A program made the translations under genes and the position numbers. A model generated the notes under the pieces. That model saw nothing but the letters and a program-made list of their open reading frames with translations. It was not told the DNA's origin and made no database searches. Of a stretch of DNA of 64,000 nt, positions 20,162-29,738 are shown in pieces (position 1 is the stretch's first letter; each line of letters starts with the position of its first letter). Source of the stretch: Candidatus Nitrosymbiomonas proteolyticus (GTDB taxonomy: Bacteria; Armatimonadota; Fimbriimonadia; Fimbriimonadales; Fimbriimonadaceae); contig AP021858.1 in assembly GCA_017347465.1 (NCBI GenBank), positions 1 through 64,000 of the forward strand. The letters run 5' to 3'.

Positions 20162-20647
20162 TCATTTTCCGGCCTTGCCCCTGGCCTGCCCTGGCTTCAC
20201 TTGCCCTGTCAGCCGGTACAGATCGTCGTAACTCCATGTCGCAACAGTTCCGTTGACGCTCCGGGTCATGCGGTTGCCGACGGCATCGTAGCTGTCGATC
20301 TGTGTCACGATCGGAACGTTCGAAGCGTTCAGTTCCCCTTGCGTCGTCAGTTGCGAACGCATATCATAATCATACAGCCTTTTGCTGCCGTTGCCAAGCA
20401 TCATGGTGGGGAAAGCACCAGTTTCAGGCCCCACCCAAAGGGGCCGACCCGGCCTCCCAGCCCGCTGGAGAGCCTGACCGGTTCCCTGACAAACGGCACG
20501 AACCATCCGCCTGTCAGGGCCACCCGCCGCTGAGTCCCGCTCGCCGAAGGAGAACGATCCCAAGGACTGGGGGTGCCTGCGTTGAAAGACGGGACTGGGG
20601 CGAGAGCAGTCATTGATGACTAACTCGCTTACCCATCCAGTATCCAT
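20162..20647 (-). pseudogene. RHS repeat fragment joined to an interspersed repeat
   Basis: An open frame of 161 codons whose second half (from MMLGNGSKRLYDYDMRSQL to SYDDLYRLTGQVKPGQ) is clearly RHS/YD-repeat. It is nearly the same as the matching part of the RHS gene ending at 26399. The first half is not RHS: it reads through a repeat element (20395-20528) that is also present twice at 29.5-29.7 kb. The frame stops after GQARGKAGK, before the RHS core, 14 nt from the tRNA-Ala gene. I regard it as the truncated end of an older RHS gene. Confidence 0.75.
20395..20528. repeat. Interspersed repeat, copy 1 (about 120-135 bp)
   Basis: This copy matches 29476-29594 at about 93% by eye and 29616-29734 less closely. 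All share the core GGCACGAACCATCCGCCTGT and a GC-rich block with GGGGCCGACCCGGCCTCCCA. The end next to RHS sequence is CATCATGGTGG, which in the RHS frame encodes part of MMLGNG. Confidence 0.8.
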
Positions 20648-21251
20648 CCTTTGCCATCAATGGCCAACCAAAGCGAACCCATCTTCGAGATACGCGTCCA
20701 TCCTCTAACTCCAACCACTCTTGGAATTCGATAAACCGAAGGCCGTCAGATCTCAACGAGCCAACATAAAACGGAACTTTCGCATATTTCAGGCCACCCT
20801 CACTAAATATAAACACCACGGATTCACGTTTGCCGGATACTTCGGGTTCGCAGTTCACATAACAAATCTGATAGCCGTCGATGATTGCCACCTGACCTCC
20901 TCCTGGACAACCCTCAAATGCTTGAGGCTTTCTAATTGCCATGAATTGGCCCCTTACCCTCTTAACAAAGAACGGTTCAAATAAATCCACGCCACCGTTG
21001 ACAAGGGCAACAATGCGATCGCTTTGCACGCTAATTACATCAGCCACGTTACGGTCCCTACGGCTTACGTCGAACTTAATCAATGCACGCAACCCTCCCT
21101 TGGCCTCTCGCTGGGCCAAATACACGCTATCTGTTCCCAACTTGTCATCAAAAGTGCTCGCAACGCACAGGTTCGTAACGACGCGGCTTGTCGGCTCAAG
21201 TTCCTGCGACGGTAGTCGCATTGTTAATAAGCAAACGATTGTGCTAATCAC
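20610..21251 (-). CDS. Candidate immunity protein for RHS-1 (exported, unknown family)
   Basis: The 213-residue protein has a short hydrophobic N-terminus (TIVCLLTMRLPS) that could be a signal peptide, then a mixed alpha/beta body with no family I recognise. The GTG start (21251) lies inside the 3' end of the RHS-1 gene, 8 nt of overlap including the stop, so the two are translationally coupled. The sequence is visibly less GC-rich than the housekeeping genes. Its position directly after the RHS tip is where immunity genes sit in RHS systems; the role is inferred from position only. Confidence 0.55.
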   Translation of the reverse strand: MISTIVCLLTMRLPSQELEPTSRVVTNLCVASTFDDKLGTDSVYLAQREAKGGLRALIKFDVSRRDRNVADVISVQSDRIVALVNGGVDLFEPFFVKRVRGQFMAIRKPQAFEGCPGGGQVAIIDGYQICYVNCEPEVSGKRESVVFIFSEGGLKYAKVPFYVGSLRSDGLRFIEFQEWLELEDGRVSRRWVRFGWPLMAKDGYWMGKRVSHQ

Positions 21252-22773
21252 AAATGATGATCCAGTTATCTACAGGTCGCCAATCCGGCTTGCCAGTTTT
21301 AGTCGTATTGCCACCTAGTATAGGCTTGGGCCCATCGCTAGTACTGCCCCATACCTGAGACGAGCCTGATCCATCGAGCCATACAAACCTGGAACCCTTG
21401 GGACAGTGTTTGCCAGCACACTTGGCGAAATCGGAAGCAGAACAGCCAGTTGTTACTATGATCCCAACTAACTTCCCATTCTTATCTACGCAGGCCCCGG
21501 TGCGGCCCGTCCGCCCACTTCCAGCCGAGGGAACATCCTCAATGGGCCGAATACTTCCGGTAATATAGCCGCCTCCGGTAACGATAGGTAATGGGTTGGG
21601 CTCGCCCCCAATTCCCTTGACGGGAGGACCATTGCATGGATCTAAAGGAGCGATGGGGTTAATGCCGTAGAAAAAGCTACCATTGACGCAAACACAGTTC
21701 CTTCCTTTTGCCCAAGTTTGAGCAAATCGCAGACAATCTGCTCCAGTCATGAGCCCGGTCTGCCCTGGTTTACCTTTGACCGGGGGGCCAACAACAATGC
21801 CAGTCTTGTCATCTTTATCAGGCAGAATGAGCAGTGTCCTGCCACATCCTTTGCAATCGATTGGCTGTGTCGTGAAGAGACCCGTTGGATCGACTTCCAT
21901 TAGGGGACGACCGGCAGCGTAGGAAATGGGAAGTTCAATCGGCCAGATCGGATCGGTCTGCATCCACCTGCCCAGCTTCTTGTACAACTCTCTGGCTCTG
22001 ACGTAATCTCGGTCTGCTGTGTCGTTGTAGTAGCCGTAGGCGGCGATGTAGACGAAGGGGATAGAAACTTGCTCGCTGGTAGGTAGCAGAGTTCCGTAGG
22101 GGGTCAACTGCACAAGGCCACCAAGCGAAGCTCCGGCAGAGATCTCTTTGACCAAGCTTCCAAGCGGGTCGGTGAGCAGGTCTTTGCTTCCGCAGGACAC
22201 TATCTCCCCCTCCAGCGTGAGCACCACACGGTTCTGGGTGGGTTCGTTCAGGAGCAGGTAGTCGCTTCCGTCCCACACCATCGTCGTAACGTCGAGGGTC
22301 GGCGGGTCTTGGTTCTGGTTCGTCGTGGCCACAGAGCGGCGAAACCCGTCGCCGTCGAAGCTGTAGGTGGTCTTGTCTCCGGATGGATCGGTGACGACGG
22401 CGAGTTGGTCCTGCCCGTTGTAGGCATAGCCCGTGGTCTGGCTGCCCGTGATCTCGCTCTCCAGGGCTCCGTAGCCGGTCCAGGCATAGGTGGTGAGACT
22501 CGATCCTTCCACCATCGTGACGAGACGGTCGGCCGCGTTGAAGGTGAAGGTCCTCGGGAAGTTTCCGCCTTCCCACATCGTCTTGAGGTTCCCGACCCCA
22601 TCCAGCGTGTAGGTGCAAACCTGCCCGGCTTTGGCCTGACCAGTCAAACGGTACAGATCGTCGTAGCTCCATGTGATGGGGTTGCCGTCGAGGTTTCTCG
22701 TGAGGCGGTTGCCGCTTCTTGATGTTAGTTTCGCAGTAGGGTCAAATGCCGATCTGAAGTAGCCGGTTCTCAT
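21244..22773 (-). CDS. Short RHS protein 1 with phosphodiester-glycosidase-like C-terminal domain
   Basis: The 509-residue protein consists of YD repeats and the RHS-associated core (residues about 20-305), ending at the boundary motif MEVDPTGL. It lacks a signal peptide and the large RHS shell. The C-terminal ~200 residues contain CVNGSFFYG (about 364-371), VWLDGSGSSQVW (about 464-475) and PDWRPVDNWIII near the end. This is the order seen in NAGPA-type phosphodiester glycosidases (NGGFF, LDGGGSS, RxVxN). The assignment is from motifs only. The start follows the previous stop without a gap (TAGATG). Confidence 0.75.
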   Translation of the reverse strand: MRTGYFRSAFDPTAKLTSRSGNRLTRNLDGNPITWSYDDLYRLTGQAKAGQVCTYTLDGVGNLKTMWEGGNFPRTFTFNAADRLVTMVEGSSLTTYAWTGYGALESEITGSQTTGYAYNGQDQLAVVTDPSGDKTTYSFDGDGFRRSVATTNQNQDPPTLDVTTMVWDGSDYLLLNEPTQNRVVLTLEGEIVSCGSKDLLTDPLGSLVKEISAGASLGGLVQLTPYGTLLPTSEQVSIPFVYIAAYGYYNDTADRDYVRARELYKKLGRWMQTDPIWPIELPISYAAGRPLMEVDPTGLFTTQPIDCKGCGRTLLILPDKDDKTGIVVGPPVKGKPGQTGLMTGADCLRFAQTWAKGRNCVCVNGSFFYGINPIAPLDPCNGPPVKGIGGEPNPLPIVTGGGYITGSIRPIEDVPSAGSGRTGRTGACVDKNGKLVGIIVTTGCSASDFAKCAGKHCPKGSRFVWLDGSGSSQVWGSTSDGPKPILGGNTTKTGKPDWRPVDNWIIICD

Positions 22774-23082
22774 CTATAGCCACCACTGCCAGATGAGTGC
22801 CTTATGCGCGAAGAAGTAGATGAGTAAGCCACAATTCATCGCACTCAACAATAGCAGAATTATACGATGTCGTGAAGCTCTCGCGATGAACGTGCGGAAA
22901 AGCAAGTAGCCGGTTACTAATGGCAGACCAAAGCTTATCGGAAACATTATGAAGCTAAGCAGGAAAGGGTCCGCCCACCGAATGAAGAGAGCAAGGATTG
23001 CCAGGAGTGGAGCTATGGACCCGCATCCCACGGCAAGAGCATCTGACATCCGATTCGGTGGCTCATTCAAACCACTGATCAT
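22774..23082 (-). CDS. Candidate immunity protein for RHS-2 (multi-pass membrane protein)
   Basis: From the ATG at 23082, which overlaps the RHS-2 stop as ATGA, the product is 102 residues with three hydrophobic segments (SIAPLLAILALFI, FLLSFIMFPISFGLPLVTGYLLF, IILLLLSAMNCGLLIYFF). A TTG at 23172 would add a fourth segment (LLRVLQLLWWAFTWIGG) but needs 94 nt of overlap. A membrane protein would suit protection against a lipid-attacking tip such as RHS-2. This is inference from position and topology. Confidence 0.55.
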   Translation of the reverse strand: MISGLNEPPNRMSDALAVGCGSIAPLLAILALFIRWADPFLLSFIMFPISFGLPLVTGYLLFRTFIARASRHRIILLLLSAMNCGLLIYFFAHKALIWQWWL

Positions 23083-24371
23083 CTCCACGGCGCCCCCAAT
23101 CCAGGTGAAGGCCCACCAAAGGAGTTGCAGTACCCTAAGGAGATTTCGTGAATTGCTTGGCACTGACGCCAATCAAACGGCTGCTTTGTGCAGTGCTTGT
23201 TCCAGCAATACTTGATGTCGTTGCAGAACCTTCTGTTGCACGGAATCCAGTTGCTGGCTCCTCCGGTCACAGATGCTCCAACACAGATATCATGTTGCTT
23301 GCATGCTTCATCGGTACAGTTGTACGTTTTCGAGGAAGACCCGCATTTGCGGGCTACGCCACAGCATTCTCCATATCCCCAGGCTGGCAAGCCGCACCAA
23401 CTATCGGTCCAGAACGGGCTTGGCGACCAGCGCTTCGGAATAGACTCTCGGGGCCACGGATTGATGCCCGGAGGGAGTGGAATCCCCTCGCCTGGAGGAA
23501 ATAGTTTGTCAAAGTACTCTTTCACGCGATCCTGGGAAGCTAAGCCACTAGGATCGATTTCGATAACTGGCTTCTGACCCGCATACCCGAAGGTTCTCTC
23601 CTCCGGCCACAGAGGATCAGTCTGCATCCACCTGCCCAGCTTCTTGTACAACTCTCTGGCCCGCACGTAGTCACGGTCTATGCTGTCGTAGTAGTAGCCG
23701 TAGGCGGCGATGTAGACGAAGGGGGTGCTTGGTTTCCCTCTGGTTCCAATCAGGGTGCCGTAGGGATACATTTCGATGAGGCTACCCAAACTCGCGCCCG
23801 CAGAGATCTCCTTGACCAAACTTCCGAGGGGATCGGTGAGCAGGTCTTTGCTTCCGCAGGACACTATCTCCCCCTCCAACGTGAGCACCACACGGTTCTG
23901 GGTGGGCCCGTGGAGGAGCAGGTAGTCGCTTCCGTCCCACACCATCGTCGTGACGTCGAGGGTCGGCGGGTCTTCGTTCTGGTTCGTCGTGGCCGCGGAT
24001 CTTCGCAATCCATCGCCGTCGAAAGAGTAGGTGGTCTTGTCGCCGGAGGGTTCGGTAACAACGGCGAGTTGGTCCTGCCCGTTGTAGGCGTAGCCCGTGG
24101 TCTGGTTTCCGGTGACCTCGCTCTCCAGGGCTCCGTAGCCGGTCCAGGTGTAGGTGGTGAGATCGGCGCCTTCCACCATCGTGACCAGCCGGTCGGCGGC
24201 GTTGAAGGTGAAGGTCCTCGGGAAGCTGCCGCCTTCCCACATCGTCTTTAGATTGCCCACCCCATCCAGCGTGTAGGTGCAGACTTGCCCTGCCTTTTGC
24301 TGGCCGGTCAGCCGGTACAGATCGTCGTAAGTCCAGGTGATAGGGTTGCCGTCGAGGTTTCTCGTGATCAA
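23079..24371 (-). CDS. Short RHS protein 2 with phospholipase-A2-like C-terminal domain
   Basis: 430 residues: RHS YD repeats and core to about residue 280, with the boundary motif IEIDPSGL, then a cysteine-rich tip. The tip contains YGECCGVARKCG (starting at about residue 333) followed by CTDEACKQHDICVG, with H360-D361. This is the order of a PLA2 calcium-loop (YGxxCG) and the active-site CCxxHDxC signature, with one C replaced by A. Further paired cysteines follow (CNRRFCNDIKYCW). The start overlaps the preceding stop by ATGA. The lipase activity is a motif-based prediction. Confidence 0.75.
   Translation of the reverse strand: MITRNLDGNPITWTYDDLYRLTGQQKAGQVCTYTLDGVGNLKTMWEGGSFPRTFTFNAADRLVTMVEGADLTTYTWTGYGALESEVTGNQTTGYAYNGQDQLAVVTEPSGDKTTYSFDGDGLRRSAATTNQNEDPPTLDVTTMVWDGSDYLLLHGPTQNRVVLTLEGEIVSCGSKDLLTDPLGSLVKEISAGASLGSLIEMYPYGTLIGTRGKPSTPFVYIAAYGYYYDSIDRDYVRARELYKKLGRWMQTDPLWPEERTFGYAGQKPVIEIDPSGLASQDRVKEYFDKLFPPGEGIPLPPGINPWPRESIPKRWSPSPFWTDSWCGLPAWGYGECCGVARKCGSSSKTYNCTDEACKQHDICVGASVTGGASNWIPCNRRFCNDIKYCWNKHCTKQPFDWRQCQAIHEISLGYCNSFGGPSPGLGAPWR
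23701..24240 (-). repeat. RHS core repeat block A (540 bp, near-identical to block B)
   Basis: Colinear with 25361-25900 at an offset of 1660 bp. Over the stretch I compared base by base (from about 23721) only one difference was found (T/C at about 23750/25410). The block encodes the YD-repeat and core part of RHS-2. Confidence 0.9.
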
Positions 24372-24676
24372 CGCACCTCCCTGACTGCTTTCACATGGCA
24401 GATGTCTTTACTCTCTAAGGAGACGTAGATTTCTCCGCCAGATTGAATGTCAAGAACCGCTGCGAACGTTTCGCCATTTCGCGTGAAAGAGATTGTCTGT
24501 CGACCAGGACGCAGATTGAGGGAAGCGCTGCCTTTACCCTCCAACACACTTCGCTCCTCAATTGTGAATTCGCTTGGATACGTAATATGAACTAGCGCCA
24601 CTGAAGCACCGCAGCCCACTATTACGTAAAGAAGGATAATAGAGGCAAGAATCAGCAACTTCATGAAGAGACTCAT
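24368..24676 (-). CDS. Candidate immunity protein for RHS-3 (membrane-anchored or lipoprotein)
   Basis: 102 residues from the ATG at 24676, which overlaps the RHS-3 stop (ATGA). An N-terminal hydrophobic stretch LLILASIILLYVIVGCGAS could be a membrane anchor or a lipoprotein signal with Cys in VGC. A small beta-rich domain (SASLNLRPGRQTISFTRNGE, then GGEIYVSLESKD) follows; it resembles PEGA-like surface domains only loosely. Its own stop overlaps the RHS-2 start (ATGA). The role is inferred from position. Confidence 0.55.
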   Translation of the reverse strand: MSLFMKLLILASIILLYVIVGCGASVALVHITYPSEFTIEERSVLEGKGSASLNLRPGRQTISFTRNGETFAAVLDIQSGGEIYVSLESKDICHVKAVREVR

Positions 24677-26046
24677 TGAATCGCCGGTAGCACGACCCTG
24701 CTGGGGTCCTTTTTGCAATCAGTCCGCGGTTTTCGCCAGTGCTTTGGGCCACCTATCTTGGGAACGATGATCTGAAATCCGCCCGCCATTGCATGGACTA
24801 GGCAACAACGCTCGCACGACTGTGCTGTGCTACAAGTAATCCCAATGCGGTTGTTGTACAGATCCATGCACTTGTGATCTGGTGGATTAGGTTTGTAGGG
24901 GTCCGGAACGGGTCGATAGCCAGGACAGTTCTTCCAAAATGAAGGCGCATCTTTCTCGTGCATATCCGTGCACTCTTTGGCCCACTCTTTTCCAGTGAGT
25001 CCGGCAGGTCCTCCGCATTCTTGACCTATGAGACACGCCCACATGCAATGCTGGAACGCATTACAGATGGTACCATCATCAGGTGCCCCAAAACCGTAGT
25101 CTCCGCAGAATCTCTTCGCGGCTTCGGTCGCTTTCTTAGCCTGATTTGCACAACATAAGTATCCTGCACCTATTTCACCTAGTACATTCCGGTCCTTTTG
25201 TAGGCCAGAGGGATCAACAAATCGAAATGGGTTTGCGCTGACAAAAGCAAGTGATGCTTCCGCTGGCCACAGTGGATCGGTTTGCATCCACCTACCCAGT
25301 TCCTTGTACAGCTCTCTCGCCCGCACGTAGTCTCGGTCGGCTGTGTCGTTGTAGTAGCCGTAGGCGGCGATGTAGACGAAGGGGGTGCTTGGTTTCCCTC
25401 TGGTTCCAACCAGGGTGCCGTAGGGATACATTTCGATGAGGCTACCCAAACTCGCGCCCGCAGAGATCTCCTTGACCAAACTTCCGAGGGGATCGGTGAG
25501 CAGGTCTTTGCTTCCGCAGGACACTATCTCCCCCTCCAACGTGAGCACCACACGGTTCTGGGTGGGCCCGTGGAGGAGCAGGTAGTCGCTTCCGTCCCAC
25601 ACCATCGTCGTGACGTCGAGGGTCGGCGGGTCTTCGTTCTGGTTCGTCGTGGCCGCGGATCTTCGCAATCCATCGCCGTCGAAAGAGTAGGTGGTCTTGT
25701 CGCCGGAGGGTTCGGTAACAACGGCGAGTTGGTCCTGCCCGTTGTAGGCGTAGCCCGTGGTCTGGTTTCCGGTGACCTCGCTCTCCAGGGCTCCGTAGCC
25801 GGTCCAGGTGTAGGTGGTGAGATCGGCGCCTTCCACCATCGTGACCAGCCGGTCGGCGGCGTTGAAGGTGAAGGTCCTCGGGAAGCTGCCGCCTTCCCAC
25901 ATCGTCCTCAGGTTCCCAACCCCATCCAGCGTGTAGGTGCAGACTTGCCCGGCTTTGGCTTGCCCGGTCAAGCGGTACAGATCGTCGTAGCTCCAGGTGA
26001 CAGGGTTGCCGTCGAGGTTTCTCATAGTCACGGCCTTTCGCATCAT
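24673..26046 (-). CDS. Short RHS protein 3 with C-terminal domain bearing NAFxHxxW, HE and DLYNN motifs
   Basis: 457 residues: RHS repeats and core up to FVDPSGL near residue 285, then a tip of about 170 residues. The tip carries ICNAFQHCMWACL (N329, H333, W336), CTDMHEKD (H363, E364) and CMDLYNNRIG (D395, N398, N399). This trio resembles the conserved blocks of the DUF6973-type family (NAFRHAYW / HE / D-x-x-N-N), although I cannot run a profile. Many cysteines suggest an exported, disulfide-bonded domain. The RHS half is near-identical to RHS-2 over 540 bp. Confidence 0.72.
   Translation of the reverse strand: MMRKAVTMRNLDGNPVTWSYDDLYRLTGQAKAGQVCTYTLDGVGNLRTMWEGGSFPRTFTFNAADRLVTMVEGADLTTYTWTGYGALESEVTGNQTTGYAYNGQDQLAVVTEPSGDKTTYSFDGDGLRRSAATTNQNEDPPTLDVTTMVWDGSDYLLLHGPTQNRVVLTLEGEIVSCGSKDLLTDPLGSLVKEISAGASLGSLIEMYPYGTLVGTRGKPSTPFVYIAAYGYYNDTADRDYVRARELYKELGRWMQTDPLWPAEASLAFVSANPFRFVDPSGLQKDRNVLGEIGAGYLCCANQAKKATEAAKRFCGDYGFGAPDDGTICNAFQHCMWACLIGQECGGPAGLTGKEWAKECTDMHEKDAPSFWKNCPGYRPVPDPYKPNPPDHKCMDLYNNRIGITCSTAQSCERCCLVHAMAGGFQIIVPKIGGPKHWRKPRTDCKKDPSRVVLPAIQ
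25361..25900 (-). repeat. RHS core repeat block B (540 bp, near-identical to block A)
   Basis: The partner of 23701-24240. It encodes the YD-repeat and core part of RHS-3. Identity drops on both sides, at the tips and at about 25901-25920, where block A differs at several bases. Confidence 0.9.
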
Positions 26047-26417
26047 GCGCCCTTGCCTTTACCCCCTATTCCGCCTCGTGAATATCCCAGGCACAAGGCA
26101 CCAGCCACCGCTGAAGCCGGGGCCACGATAAGTTCTGTTGGCGCAAATCGTCCAAAGCCTCCAAGAAACCCTCCAACAAGTAGCAAGATGTAAGCGACCA
26201 CACTCAAAATCCAGCTATATAGACCAAATGGAATCCGCGGTCGTGCGGTCGCTGAAGTTGCGGCAAAGACGTTCAACACTATTGCAAACAGAGCCAGTAC
26301 GAATAACTGTTCTCCCGTGACGAACACTGTAGCAAGCCGAATCGTGATAGCCGATGCTGCCAATGAGTTTGCTAAGATAAGTAAGCCTCTCAATCTCACT
26401 AGCCTTTGTAGCCGCAC
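26043..26417 (-). CDS. Candidate immunity protein for RHS-4 (multi-pass membrane protein)
   Basis: 124 residues from a GTG at 26417, or 118 from a second in-frame GTG at 26399 that shares one base with the RHS-4 stop (TAGTG). Three to four hydrophobic segments (LLILANSLAASAITIRLATVF, LFVLALFAIVLNVFAATSA, GLYSWILSVVAYILLLVGGFLG). The end is Gly/Lys-rich (SRGGIGGKGKGA). Its stop overlaps the RHS-3 start (ATGA). No family recognised. Confidence 0.55.
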   Translation of the reverse strand: MRLQRLVRLRGLLILANSLAASAITIRLATVFVTGEQLFVLALFAIVLNVFAATSATARPRIPFGLYSWILSVVAYILLLVGGFLGGFGRFAPTELIVAPASAVAGALCLGYSRGGIGGKGKGA

Positions 26418-28009
26418 CTACGGAACTTATCCCGAAGAACCTTCTTAAAAGCTTTTTCAAGGGGGCACACTACGTGGCAGCAGATCCTAATCTGGCACTC
26501 GACGCAGCACCAATCTGGCAATACTTGACCACCTCCAGGCGTAGGATTACCACCTGATCGATGGCAATCTGCATAGCAATCATCGGACGGACTGCATGGT
26601 CTGTGGATCTTGTTATAGCCGTTGCAGGAGGGCCACCCTGAGCAGTTAGATTCGTCAAGCGCGGGCTTGCAAACCGTTGAATACCATTGGCACACGCGCA
26701 GGTAGCACTTGTAGTTTGGATCCGAAGTTGCAACACCCAACAGCTTTGCTGGGGAGCTGCAGGTGCACCCCGGTGCCAATCCGTCCGGATCGACAGAGGA
26801 AATCGGGGTAGCATCACAGTACTGAACGGATGTCTGGTCCGGCCACAACGGATCGGTTTGCATCCACCTGCCCAGCTTCTTCATCAACTCCCTAGCCCGC
26901 ACATAATCACGATCGGAAGAATCGTAATAGTAGCCAAGGCTGCCCACAAACAAGAACGGAAACGAGGGCTGGACTACAGAAAGAAGCATAGTGCCATAAG
27001 GCCAGTAGCTGAAGGGCACCCGTGGTTCTTGCCCGGAGCGGATATCCCCTATCACCGAGCCCAGCGAATCCGGCAGAAGGTCGAAACTGCCTGACGAGAC
27101 GATCTCGCCCCCAAGAGTCAAAACGACTGTGTCGGAATTCGGTCCGTTCAGAAGCAGGTAGTCGCTTCCGTCCCACACCATCGTCGTGATGTCGAGCGTC
27201 GGCGGGTCCTGGTTTACATTCGTCGTCTGGATCGAGCGCCGCAAGCCATCGCCATCGAAGGCATACGTGGTGGGAAAACCATCGCCGGGCGGAGTGACGA
27301 GGGCGAGCTGGTCCTGGCCGTTGTAGCCGTAGTTGGTTGTGGCCGTGCCTGTAATCTCAGAGGAGAGAGCGCCATACCCGGTCCAGGTGTAGGTGGTCAG
27401 GTTCGAGCCCTCGATCATCGTGACGATCTTGTCAGCCGGGTCGTGGGTGAAGGTCTTGGGGAAGTTTCCGCCTTCCCACATCGTCTTCAGGTTCCCGACA
27501 CCATCGAGCGTGTATGTCGCCACCTGTCCTGGCTTCACCTGCCCCGTGAGGCGATAAAGGTCATCATACGTCCAGGTCGCGACCGTCCCGTTCACGCTGC
27601 GGGTCATGCGGTTGCCGACGGCATCGTAACTGTCTATCAAGGTCACGATCGGCACGTTCGACGAGTTCAACTCCACTTGCGTCGTCAGTTGCGAACGCAT
27701 ATCATAATCATACAGCCTTTTGCTCCCGTTGCCAAGCATCATGGTGGTGCGGCGGGAGTCCGCGTCGTAGCTAAGCGTATACAGCGCGTTCCCCGGCTTC
27801 TGCGCGGTGGCGAGGCGGTTGAGGGAGTCGAACGTGAACGTGAAGAGCCCGGTGCCGACCAGGTTGAGTCCCGTGCGGTTGCCGTTGGGGTCATACCCAT
27901 AGCTTTGCACGAATCCCGCCGCATCGGTCTGGCCGCTTTGACGGCCGAGCGTCGAAGATGCATATGGATTCCCCTCTCTCTCAATCTCACCATTCCCGTG
28001 GGCGCTCAT
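26399..28009 (-). CDS. Short RHS protein 4 with a cysteine-rich C-terminal domain
   Basis: 536 residues from the ATG at 28009, which overlaps the upstream stop (ATGA); the frame is open further upstream, but through another gene. It keeps more YD repeats than the other three (GRQSGQTDAAGFVQSYGYDPNGNR onwards). The core ends at SSVDPDGL. The ~125-residue tip has 17 cysteines, including several close pairs (WCCVEC, ICCHVVC), and a basic end (KKVLRDKFRR). I do not recognise it. Its RHS half is more diverged from copies 1-3 than those are from each other. Confidence 0.72.
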   Translation of the reverse strand: MSAHGNGEIEREGNPYASSTLGRQSGQTDAAGFVQSYGYDPNGNRTGLNLVGTGLFTFTFDSLNRLATAQKPGNALYTLSYDADSRRTTMMLGNGSKRLYDYDMRSQLTTQVELNSSNVPIVTLIDSYDAVGNRMTRSVNGTVATWTYDDLYRLTGQVKPGQVATYTLDGVGNLKTMWEGGNFPKTFTHDPADKIVTMIEGSNLTTYTWTGYGALSSEITGTATTNYGYNGQDQLALVTPPGDGFPTTYAFDGDGLRRSIQTTNVNQDPPTLDITTMVWDGSDYLLLNGPNSDTVVLTLGGEIVSSGSFDLLPDSLGSVIGDIRSGQEPRVPFSYWPYGTMLLSVVQPSFPFLFVGSLGYYYDSSDRDYVRARELMKKLGRWMQTDPLWPDQTSVQYCDATPISSVDPDGLAPGCTCSSPAKLLGVATSDPNYKCYLRVCQWYSTVCKPALDESNCSGWPSCNGYNKIHRPCSPSDDCYADCHRSGGNPTPGGGQVLPDWCCVECQIRICCHVVCPLEKAFKKVLRDKFRRCGYKG

Positions 28010-28554
28010 CTTGGAGCCCTTAAATCGAAGCGCTGCATTGGCTTGAACAACAACCCTACTAGCTTCGACGTCGCATGACGAACCACGGGCCACGTTGCAA
28101 GGACGAGACCGACAAACAACAGATAGAGTGCGATGGAAGGCCCGAAAAATGCCACCTTGCTCCCAAGCGCGAGGATATCCATCTCTGCGGATGTACGAGA
28201 TGCAATCCAAATGGTGTAGGAATTCAAATAAACAGCACGGCCAGCGCCGTCTTGTTCTTGAAACGTGTCAGCCTCGTGACCGATGTAGCCAACGTAGGGC
28301 GAGCCCACGTGCCGAAGTGAAGCCACTTCTATTCCTGCAGCACTTAAAGCAATTTCGCTCGATTCGGACACGTAGTACTCATGCTCGCTGCAAGTCACCA
28401 CAATACAGCCAGACCCTCCGCTAGTAAACCTGTAATCACTAAGTGGTGAGCCAATGTATCGTCCTGCAAATCGCGTAGCGCCTGGACCAATTGGCCAGCA
28501 GATTATCACAACCGCCCCTAAACAAATGAGTGCCAATAGATACCGCGCCTTCAT
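28006..28554 (-). CDS. Orphan membrane protein upstream of RHS-4, possible left-over immunity protein
   Basis: 182 residues with an N-terminal hydrophobic segment (YLLALICLGAVVIICWPIG), an extracytoplasmic domain of about 100 residues, and a C-terminal membrane segment (FFGPSIALYLLFVGLVLATWPVV). It stands where an immunity gene for a preceding RHS tip would be, but no RHS gene lies upstream. Its stop is shared with the RHS-4 start (ATGA). No family recognised. Confidence 0.6.
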   Translation of the reverse strand: MKARYLLALICLGAVVIICWPIGPGATRFAGRYIGSPLSDYRFTSGGSGCIVVTCSEHEYYVSESSEIALSAAGIEVASLRHVGSPYVGYIGHEADTFQEQDGAGRAVYLNSYTIWIASRTSAEMDILALGSKVAFFGPSIALYLLFVGLVLATWPVVRHATSKLVGLLFKPMQRFDLRAPR

Positions 28555-28758
28555 AGCCTATCTCTGCGGCAACACTCCTGTCGTCCGCTTGTGCATACAG
28601 CAATCGTAGCAGGACCCGTAGAATGTCTCCCTAACGCCTTGATTCAGACCAGGAATTCAGCGGCGCTTCCACAGTGTAAATCCCGACAGAAGGGGCTTTA
28701 GCATTTCGCCCACCTCCTTCTGGGCGACTTCTCTTCGGGCAATGCTACTCTCATGTTA

Positions 28759-29130
28759 TCATTCAATTGAGATCTGCACGCGTGTGACTCGATGCGGACG
28801 CAAAGTAAAATAAGTTCTCACGCTCAGTTTCCAACCGTACAGTCTTACAACGTGCCCGTCGTCAATGTAATCGATGAAGCACCTCCCCCTGTAAACTGAT
28901 CCGCCATATCCAGGGCCATCTTCGAACCACGTCTCACTGAAACGGGAGTGCCCCCAACGGACCACCGTATATGGCCCAGCCGTATGGCTTATCTTGGACT
29001 GCTGATACTCTTTTTGGATGAACGTCACAGGCGCGAACATGAGCAGCCCGACCAGGAAAATCGACAGTGTCGATAGAATAACTGCGAACTTCCATCGCCG
29101 CATGGGCCACCGACTCGCTCTAACAGACAT
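28759..29130 (-). CDS. Orphan small membrane-anchored protein
   Basis: 123 residues with one N-terminal membrane segment (FAVILSTLSIFLVGLLMFAPVTF), then a small soluble domain (TVVRWGHSRFSETWFEDGPGYG). An alternative ATG at 29103 would remove 9 residues. Its composition and layout resemble the other small proteins of the island, but it is separated from the next gene by about 200 nt. It may be another left-over immunity gene. No family recognised. Confidence 0.5.
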   Translation of the reverse strand: MSVRASRWPMRRWKFAVILSTLSIFLVGLLMFAPVTFIQKEYQQSKISHTAGPYTVVRWGHSRFSETWFEDGPGYGGSVYRGRCFIDYIDDGHVVRLYGWKLSVRTYFTLRPHRVTRVQISIE

Positions 29131-29475
29131 AGTCTTTCATACGTATCTCGATGCTCTGGGCATTGCAGCCATCTTGATTTTCCTCATCCATGCCATCCGT
29201 TCCAGCGACGGGTGGTCACTCTTTTGGATTCCGGCTGACGGCATAGCGAGAAACCCGAGGCGGGTGCCTTCCGAGCTTGCTCGCGGGATTCCTCGTCCCA
29301 TCGTGATTGCCTCGCCACCATCCCTCCCATTATAGGGCATCTCGCGGCAACCAGGGAAGAGAATCGGGCAGAGGTTTCGGCCGCTCTTCTCGGCAGCGGT
29401 CCCCGCGGAGGTCCGAGCGGTATGTTGCTCCTCGGTCTGGGTGGCCCGTTCTGGCCCGCAGACCAAACCGGGCGA

Positions 29476-29738
29476 GGGAAAGCACCAGTTTCAGGACCCG
29501 CCCAAAGGGGCCGACCCGGCCTCCCAGCCCGCTGGAGAGTCTGCCTGGTTCCCTGACAAACGGCACGAACCATCCGCCTGTCAGGGCCACCCGCCCGTTG
29601 TCCAGCATCATGGTGGGGAAAGCGCTCGTTTCACGACCCGCCCGAGCGGCCCGACCCGGCCTCCCAGCACGCCGGAGAGGCTGCCTGATTCCCTGACAAA
29701 CGGCACGAACCATCCGCCTGTCAGGGCCACCCGCCCGT
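29476..29738. repeat. Tandem pair of the interspersed repeat (period 140 bp)
   Basis: Two copies, starting at 29476 and 29616, are exactly 140 bp apart; the same element occurs once more at 20395-20528. They share GGGAAAGC at the start and CCGCCCGT at the end, with CATCATGGTG between the copies. Confidence 0.85.

Follow-up and report, generated by a model that had tools for sequence, protein, structure and literature searches.

Headless but translatable: a probable orphan array of RHS tip and immunity genes in Candidatus Nitrosymbiomonas proteolyticus

Why should a bacterial genome carry four short RHS genes, all apparently translatable and each followed by a small gene, when the head that would deliver their products is gone? 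The question is raised by positions 29130-20162 (minus strand) of the 64,000-nucleotide stretch analysed here (the window), which is the start of the 2.81-Mb single-contig genome of Candidatus Nitrosymbiomonas proteolyticus (G000). The usual picture of orphan toxin tips is one of silent spare parts; those of the window lie in open, overlapping genes whose matching delivery head has been lost, and a sister strain shows the same locus with the heads still in place. The locus is probably an orphan RHS tip/immunity array. It is of a known kind in an unusual state, i.e. translatable, tightly overlapped and headless.

The sister strain is a complete metagenome-assembled genome of the same species (G094; CP054189.1, 2,897,187 bp), labelled Chthonomonadaceae bacterium H1_ARM1, against which the array elements are described below. 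The short RHS open reading frames (ORFs) have YD repeats, with PF05593 above its cut-off in all four, and match TIGR03696 (RHS-associated core) at E 1e-5 to 1e-7, below the cut-off of that model. Their cores of 274-275 aa, with DPxGL at the end, are followed by mutually unrelated tips (210, 153, 175 and 125 aa), and a full-length delivery head was not found in any of the four. This anatomy, including the small gene after each RHS gene, is as a preliminary description of the locus had it; the small genes are named below for their presumed immunity role, and transmembrane is abbreviated TM. From the upstream end, the features are:

28759..29130, minus strand: small gene, 123 aa, with one N-terminal hydrophobic segment; probably an immunity gene without its toxin, 204 nt ahead of the chain
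28006..28554, minus strand: small gene, 182 aa, signal-like at the N-terminus and with TM segments at the C-terminus; a probable orphan immunity gene, its stop in an ATGA overlap with the RHS-4 start
26399..28009, minus strand: RHS-4, 536 aa, corresponding to about residues 828-1224 of the G094 head; tip of 125 aa with 17 Cys
26043..26417, minus strand: immunity 4, 124 aa (or from the GTG at 26399), with four TM-like segments
24673..26046, minus strand: RHS-3, 457 aa; tip with DUF6973 (PF22322, E 8.8e-16) and 15 Cys
24368..24676, minus strand: immunity 3, 102 aa, with one N-terminal TM segment
23079..24371, minus strand: RHS-2, 430 aa, with a TTG start and a strong ribosome-binding site; putative phospholipase A2 (PLA2)-like tip with 13 Cys
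22774..23082, minus strand: immunity 2, 102 aa, with three TM segments
21244..22773, minus strand: RHS-1, 509 aa; tip with 11 Cys that weakly matches phosphodiester glycosidase (NAGPA)
20610..21251, minus strand: immunity 1, 213 aa, in which a clear TM segment was not seen
20514..20613, minus strand: N-terminus of an RHS head (remnant), beginning in the ATGA overlap at the immunity 1 stop
20183..20409, minus strand: core remnant of a head, corresponding to G094 head residues 880-975, with its 3' end truncated

Within the chain, all junctions overlap or abut. ATGA is present at 28009, 26046, 24676, 23082 and 20613, TAGATG at 22773 and an 8-nt overlap at 21251, and the overlap at 26417/26399 is 1 or 19 nt, depending on which GTG starts immunity 4. 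The junctions given previously were thus recovered except that at 24371, reported as ATGA, which reads TTGA; the further proposal that every boundary appears translationally linked fits the overlaps of the chain, but not the gene at 29130-28759, which its 204-nt gap leaves uncoupled. A 4-nt overlap start occurs at four of the five immunity-to-RHS junctions (28009, 26046, 24371 and 20613; P ~2e-4, against a usable 4-nt overlap start in 8.4% of simulated random joins, a value that depends on the null model chosen). All four RHS frames have in-frame starts, and these and the small genes are open, with zero frameshifts or internal stops, so that the short genes are translatable as was proposed. 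The ribosome-binding sites of RHS-2 and RHS-3 are strong, those of RHS-1 and RHS-4 unremarkable. GC content is 59-60% in the cores, 52-55% in the tips and 48-52% in the immunity genes. A promoter scan of the array gave no more matches than shuffled sequence, and terminator-like sites number 21 versus 9.3 in shuffles, most of them on the plus strand, opposite to the array. Mis-assembly via collapsed repeats is unlikely, in that three independent immunity-to-core joins would all need to be wrong.

Evidence on the likely loss of the heads comes from the sister strain, the flanks of which align to the window at 97-98%. At the tRNA-Ala/tig locus G094 has three tandem full-length RHS genes (1363, 1375 and 1367 aa), which are 98-99% identical over their first 1222 residues, differ in their Cys-rich tips and are each followed by a small gene. 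Protein identity of the G094 core is 83-85% to RHS-1/2/3 and 68% to RHS-4. The start at 20613, 'MTALAPVPSFNAGTPSPWDRSPSASGTQRR', in the ATGA shared with the immunity 1 stop, is the N-terminus of a full-length RHS head, as comparison with the G094 head starts indicates, and the ORF at 20162-20647 is therefore a gutted head remnant rather than an unrelated gene. In G000 the window subtype survives only as head residues 828-1224 (RHS-4), ~943-1224 (RHS-1 to RHS-3) and 880-975 (the remnant), together with the N-terminal scrap at 20613. G094 lacks the 9.3-kb segment 20410-29737 of the window and has an RHS remnant of ~825 bp in its place; the two edges of the segment coincide with copies of a repeat, D6, resembling repetitive extragenic palindromes/miniature inverted-repeat transposable elements (REP/MITE):

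20409..20528, minus strand: one D6 copy (REP/MITE-like) on the left boundary of the segment that G094 lacks
29455..29735, minus strand: two D6 copies in tandem on the right boundary of that segment

The first 47 nt of D6 form a REP/MITE-like hairpin present in ~20 copies in G000, often as inverted pairs. The flanking repeats, the absence of the segment from G094, and the adjoining gutted head and two toxin-less small genes would all fit plain genomic debris, i.e. cassettes left after head deletion that now serve no function and whose overlaps survive from the tip/immunity cassette structure. This is improbable, given that no RHS frame or small gene is broken by a frameshift or internal stop and that the immunity-to-RHS overlaps are unlikely by chance. 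As to whether related genomes carry intact RHS genes with these segments as degraded fragments, a point raised in the preliminary description, full-length relatives do occupy the site in G094, but the four segments are absent from it and their frames in G000 are open. The G094 RHS genes lie, with a large serine recombinase, in a stretch of ~30 kb adjoining tRNA-Ala (G094:C1 ~88100-117900; L104/L105) and flanked by a short imperfect repeat, which may be an integrated element.

Tips recur elsewhere, as cassettes would. That of RHS-3 shares 58% identity with the tip ORF of a split RHS in another genus (G070), where it is attached to a different RHS subtype, and the gene immediately after that homologue is a homologue of immunity 3 (30%, E 5e-15); this tip has thus travelled with its immunity gene. 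Such co-travel is seen weakly for pair 2, with an immunity 2 homologue (E 0.003) after an RHS-2 tip homologue in G086, and pairs 1 and 4 are without such evidence. Homologues of the RHS-2 tip occur in six other genomes, in one of which (G085) the homologue ends a 634-aa protein unlike RHS. Proteins of a non-RHS type (HRIDDPELA...; 634-707 aa) bear polymorphic tips at L022:3329-5452 and L124:16-1920, the L124 tip being homologous to that of RHS-2. Within the array itself, the RHS-2 and RHS-3 cores are identical across 500 nt and differ at their ends, which is a likely sign of recent gene conversion or recombination within the array. The recurrence of tips on other RHS heads, once with the immunity gene, and the presence in G094 of full-length heads with a matching core at the locus bear out the earlier suggestion of a cassette store.

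The nature of the payloads bears on where they would act. The RHS-2 tip has the motif YGxCCG ... DxACxxHDxC ... D, with the PLA2 calcium-loop YGxxxG and DxxCxxHDxC active site, and the catalytic motif is invariant in seven homologues. A profile of the family matches PLA2 structures 2wg7/2wg8 at E 0.014, and one homologue matches PF00068 at E 2.9e-4; an AlphaFold model of the tip (mean pLDDT 49.5) is too uncertain for use, and Foldseek gave no significant match with it. These weak but consistent matches point to a PLA2-like tip, which would act as a phospholipase A2. For the RHS-4 tip no family match was found, and similarity of the RHS-1 tip to RNase T1 (E 0.2) was disregarded. The tips carry 11-17 Cys, and TM-like segments are predicted in immunity 2, 3 and 4 and in both upstream small genes, though not in immunity 1. 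With Cys-rich tips, and with small genes that seem membrane-bound in five cases out of six, the payloads probably act in the target cell envelope.

An envelope target has consequences for the possibility that the headless toxins and their antidotes are self-maintaining, toxin-antitoxin-like modules inside the producing cell. In Salmonella, internal starts in both main and orphan genes give rise to headless Rhs toxins that function as toxin-antitoxin modules (PMC7043789); the window array is similar in pairing a headless RHS toxin, translatable without a head, with an immunity gene, and its coupling would also permit such expression. It is dissimilar in that the Salmonella toxins use an internal promoter and a CTG start inside the core, whereas the window starts overlap or abut the preceding immunity gene. 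Its tips are rich in Cys and most of its small proteins look anchored in the membrane or exported, which suggests an envelope target, and toxins of that kind without a signal sequence should be harmless in the cytosol. An intracellular module is a very unlikely explanation.

The closest known systems are the orphan rhs-CT/rhsI and cdiA-CT/cdiI modules, with which the array shares a core fragment with a conserved junction motif, a polymorphic tip, an immunity gene, the arrayed arrangement and the occurrence of its tips on other heads. In the preferred reading as an orphan tip/immunity array, each unit would comprise the last 274-275 codons (~400 in RHS-4) from a single subtype of RHS head, up to and including the DPxGL cleavage motif, then a polymorphic toxin tip and an immunity gene. 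Full-length genes of this subtype would formerly have stood at the locus, where one gutted head persists (20613-20162) and where the sister strain retains three. New tip-plus-immunity cassettes would arrive by recombination within the shared core, with older cassettes displaced into the chain to become headless genes, and the heads may have been lost later, probably through recombination or insertion at the D6 repeats. The tip-immunity overlaps would hold each pair together, and the start-stop overlaps would render the headless toxins translatable; their export carries no support. The array in G000 would then most likely keep a bank of immunity genes in expressed form and hold tips, presumed toxic, in store for recombination back onto an incoming head, its small genes serving to protect the cell.

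Several features set the array apart from these modules or weigh against this interpretation. Orphan modules usually lack translation initiation signals (PMC3150448, PMC3967940), whereas every unit of the array starts in frame, in most cases at a codon that overlaps the stop before it, and two of the four RHS genes have strong ribosome-binding sites; this lowers the likelihood of membership in that class, but is allowed by it, since the published trait is 'usually'. The core fragment is also long (274+ codons), and orphan modules are located downstream of a full-length rhs gene, where the window locus has only the gutted remnant. A protein search of the whole G000 genome found no full-length head of the window subtype onto which tips could be reloaded, which extends to the genome the earlier remark that no full-length RHS is visible in the window. 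Finally, dN/dS (the ratio of nonsynonymous to synonymous substitution rates) between the window cores is 0.1-0.28, although selection before their separation from full-length genes may account for this.

The locus is of interest mainly because, across the phylum, such payload ends often exist as genes of their own, ready for translation, and not as silent fragments. In three genera (L051, L054 and L055) the shell ORF ends in WDGxDYLG(E/Q)Y and a new ORF begins within 2-18 nt at ATG-GCN-ATG. The split points, at the conserved WDGxDYLGE motif and with more loci across many genera, are:

L051:6719-6740, shell/tip split point
L054:8275-8279, shell/tip split point
L055:7080-7084, shell/tip split point

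Among loci fetched with a split-type query, which biases the ratio, 18 shell ends are split and six fused, and one of the fused cases is RHS-4 of the window. Shell and tip ORFs are -4 to +26 nt apart, and their relative reading frame differs from genome to genome (0, +1, +2), so separate initiation is the simplest account of the split; readthrough or a single programmed frameshift is ruled out by the differing tip frame. Arrays of split tips and small genes are present in four genomes (G063, G070, G088 and G102), matches to the tip cores reach other families of the phylum, and stand-alone core-plus-tip genes with their own start, often with a ribosome-binding site, are common. Because they are common, delivery by an unrecognised route, as proposed in the preliminary description, is more plausible than expected, though without support at the window locus.

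It is accordingly conceivable that the short RHS proteins of the window are themselves finished core-plus-tip payload subunits that enter an RHS shell in trans, in the way that TcC enters TcB, so that one shell could serve many payloads. In Yersinia entomophaga, the shared TcB shell takes up a TcC that is encoded at a distant orphan locus (PMC11067744). Elsewhere in the phylum a shell gene ending at WDGxDYLGE* accompanies a separate core-plus-tip gene; these tips often form arrays in which each is followed by a small gene. The phylum's split RHS genes and TcB/TcC (the ABC toxins) alike appear, for the former as judged from sequence, to form a two-polypeptide shell with a separately encoded, interchangeable payload subunit. 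The split tip ORFs, however, hold only ~120 aa of core, unlike TcC (~680 aa); TcA/TcB were not sought here. For the window, trans-loading is unlikely: its subtype is unsplit in G094, being one chain of 1363-1375 aa rather than the two of TcB/TcC, its short genes begin well upstream of the split point used elsewhere, and no shell of the window subtype was recovered from G000 by the protein search. A broader proposal, tentative but less doubtful, is that RHS toxins in the phylum are commonly two-gene systems (a shell stopping at WDGxDYLGE and a separately started core plus tip). A single shell may then be supplied in trans with several interchangeable payloads from tip/immunity arrays, no recombination being required, and the window array would be a derived, headless version. 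With its fixed-point split and fresh start codon in many genera, the wider pattern makes the separate production of shell and payload subunit, as in TcB/TcC, open to direct testing. In the literature searched, no paper was found joining Fimbriimonas with Rhs or using 'split Rhs', an absence that proves little.

Some neighbouring and unlinked loci are also of note. Beside the RHS locus in several genera is a gene of 900-1000 aa (L105:16975-19806, L055:78-2741, also L051 and L052), and the two checked have glycosyltransferase and TPR domains. G000 has a contractile injection cluster of the extracellular contractile injection system (eCIS) type (L120; G000:C1:2419000-2438000), with sheath, tube, Pvc16_N and a 2060-aa eCIS_core protein, and a matching sheath gene is present in G094. 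Delivery of the window genes by a type VI secretion system or eCIS was considered and set aside: an eCIS-like cluster is present in both genomes, yet nothing ties it to these RHS genes. Elsewhere in G000 are two full-length RHS genes of another subtype, with signal-peptide-like N-termini; the window cores have no DNA match to them, and their protein identity to the G094 head is only 26-27% over the core. Both precede chains of short RHS and small genes, and the two loci (L021, L022) are interrupted by several near-identical insertion sequence copies with transposase ORFs of 101 and 276 aa.

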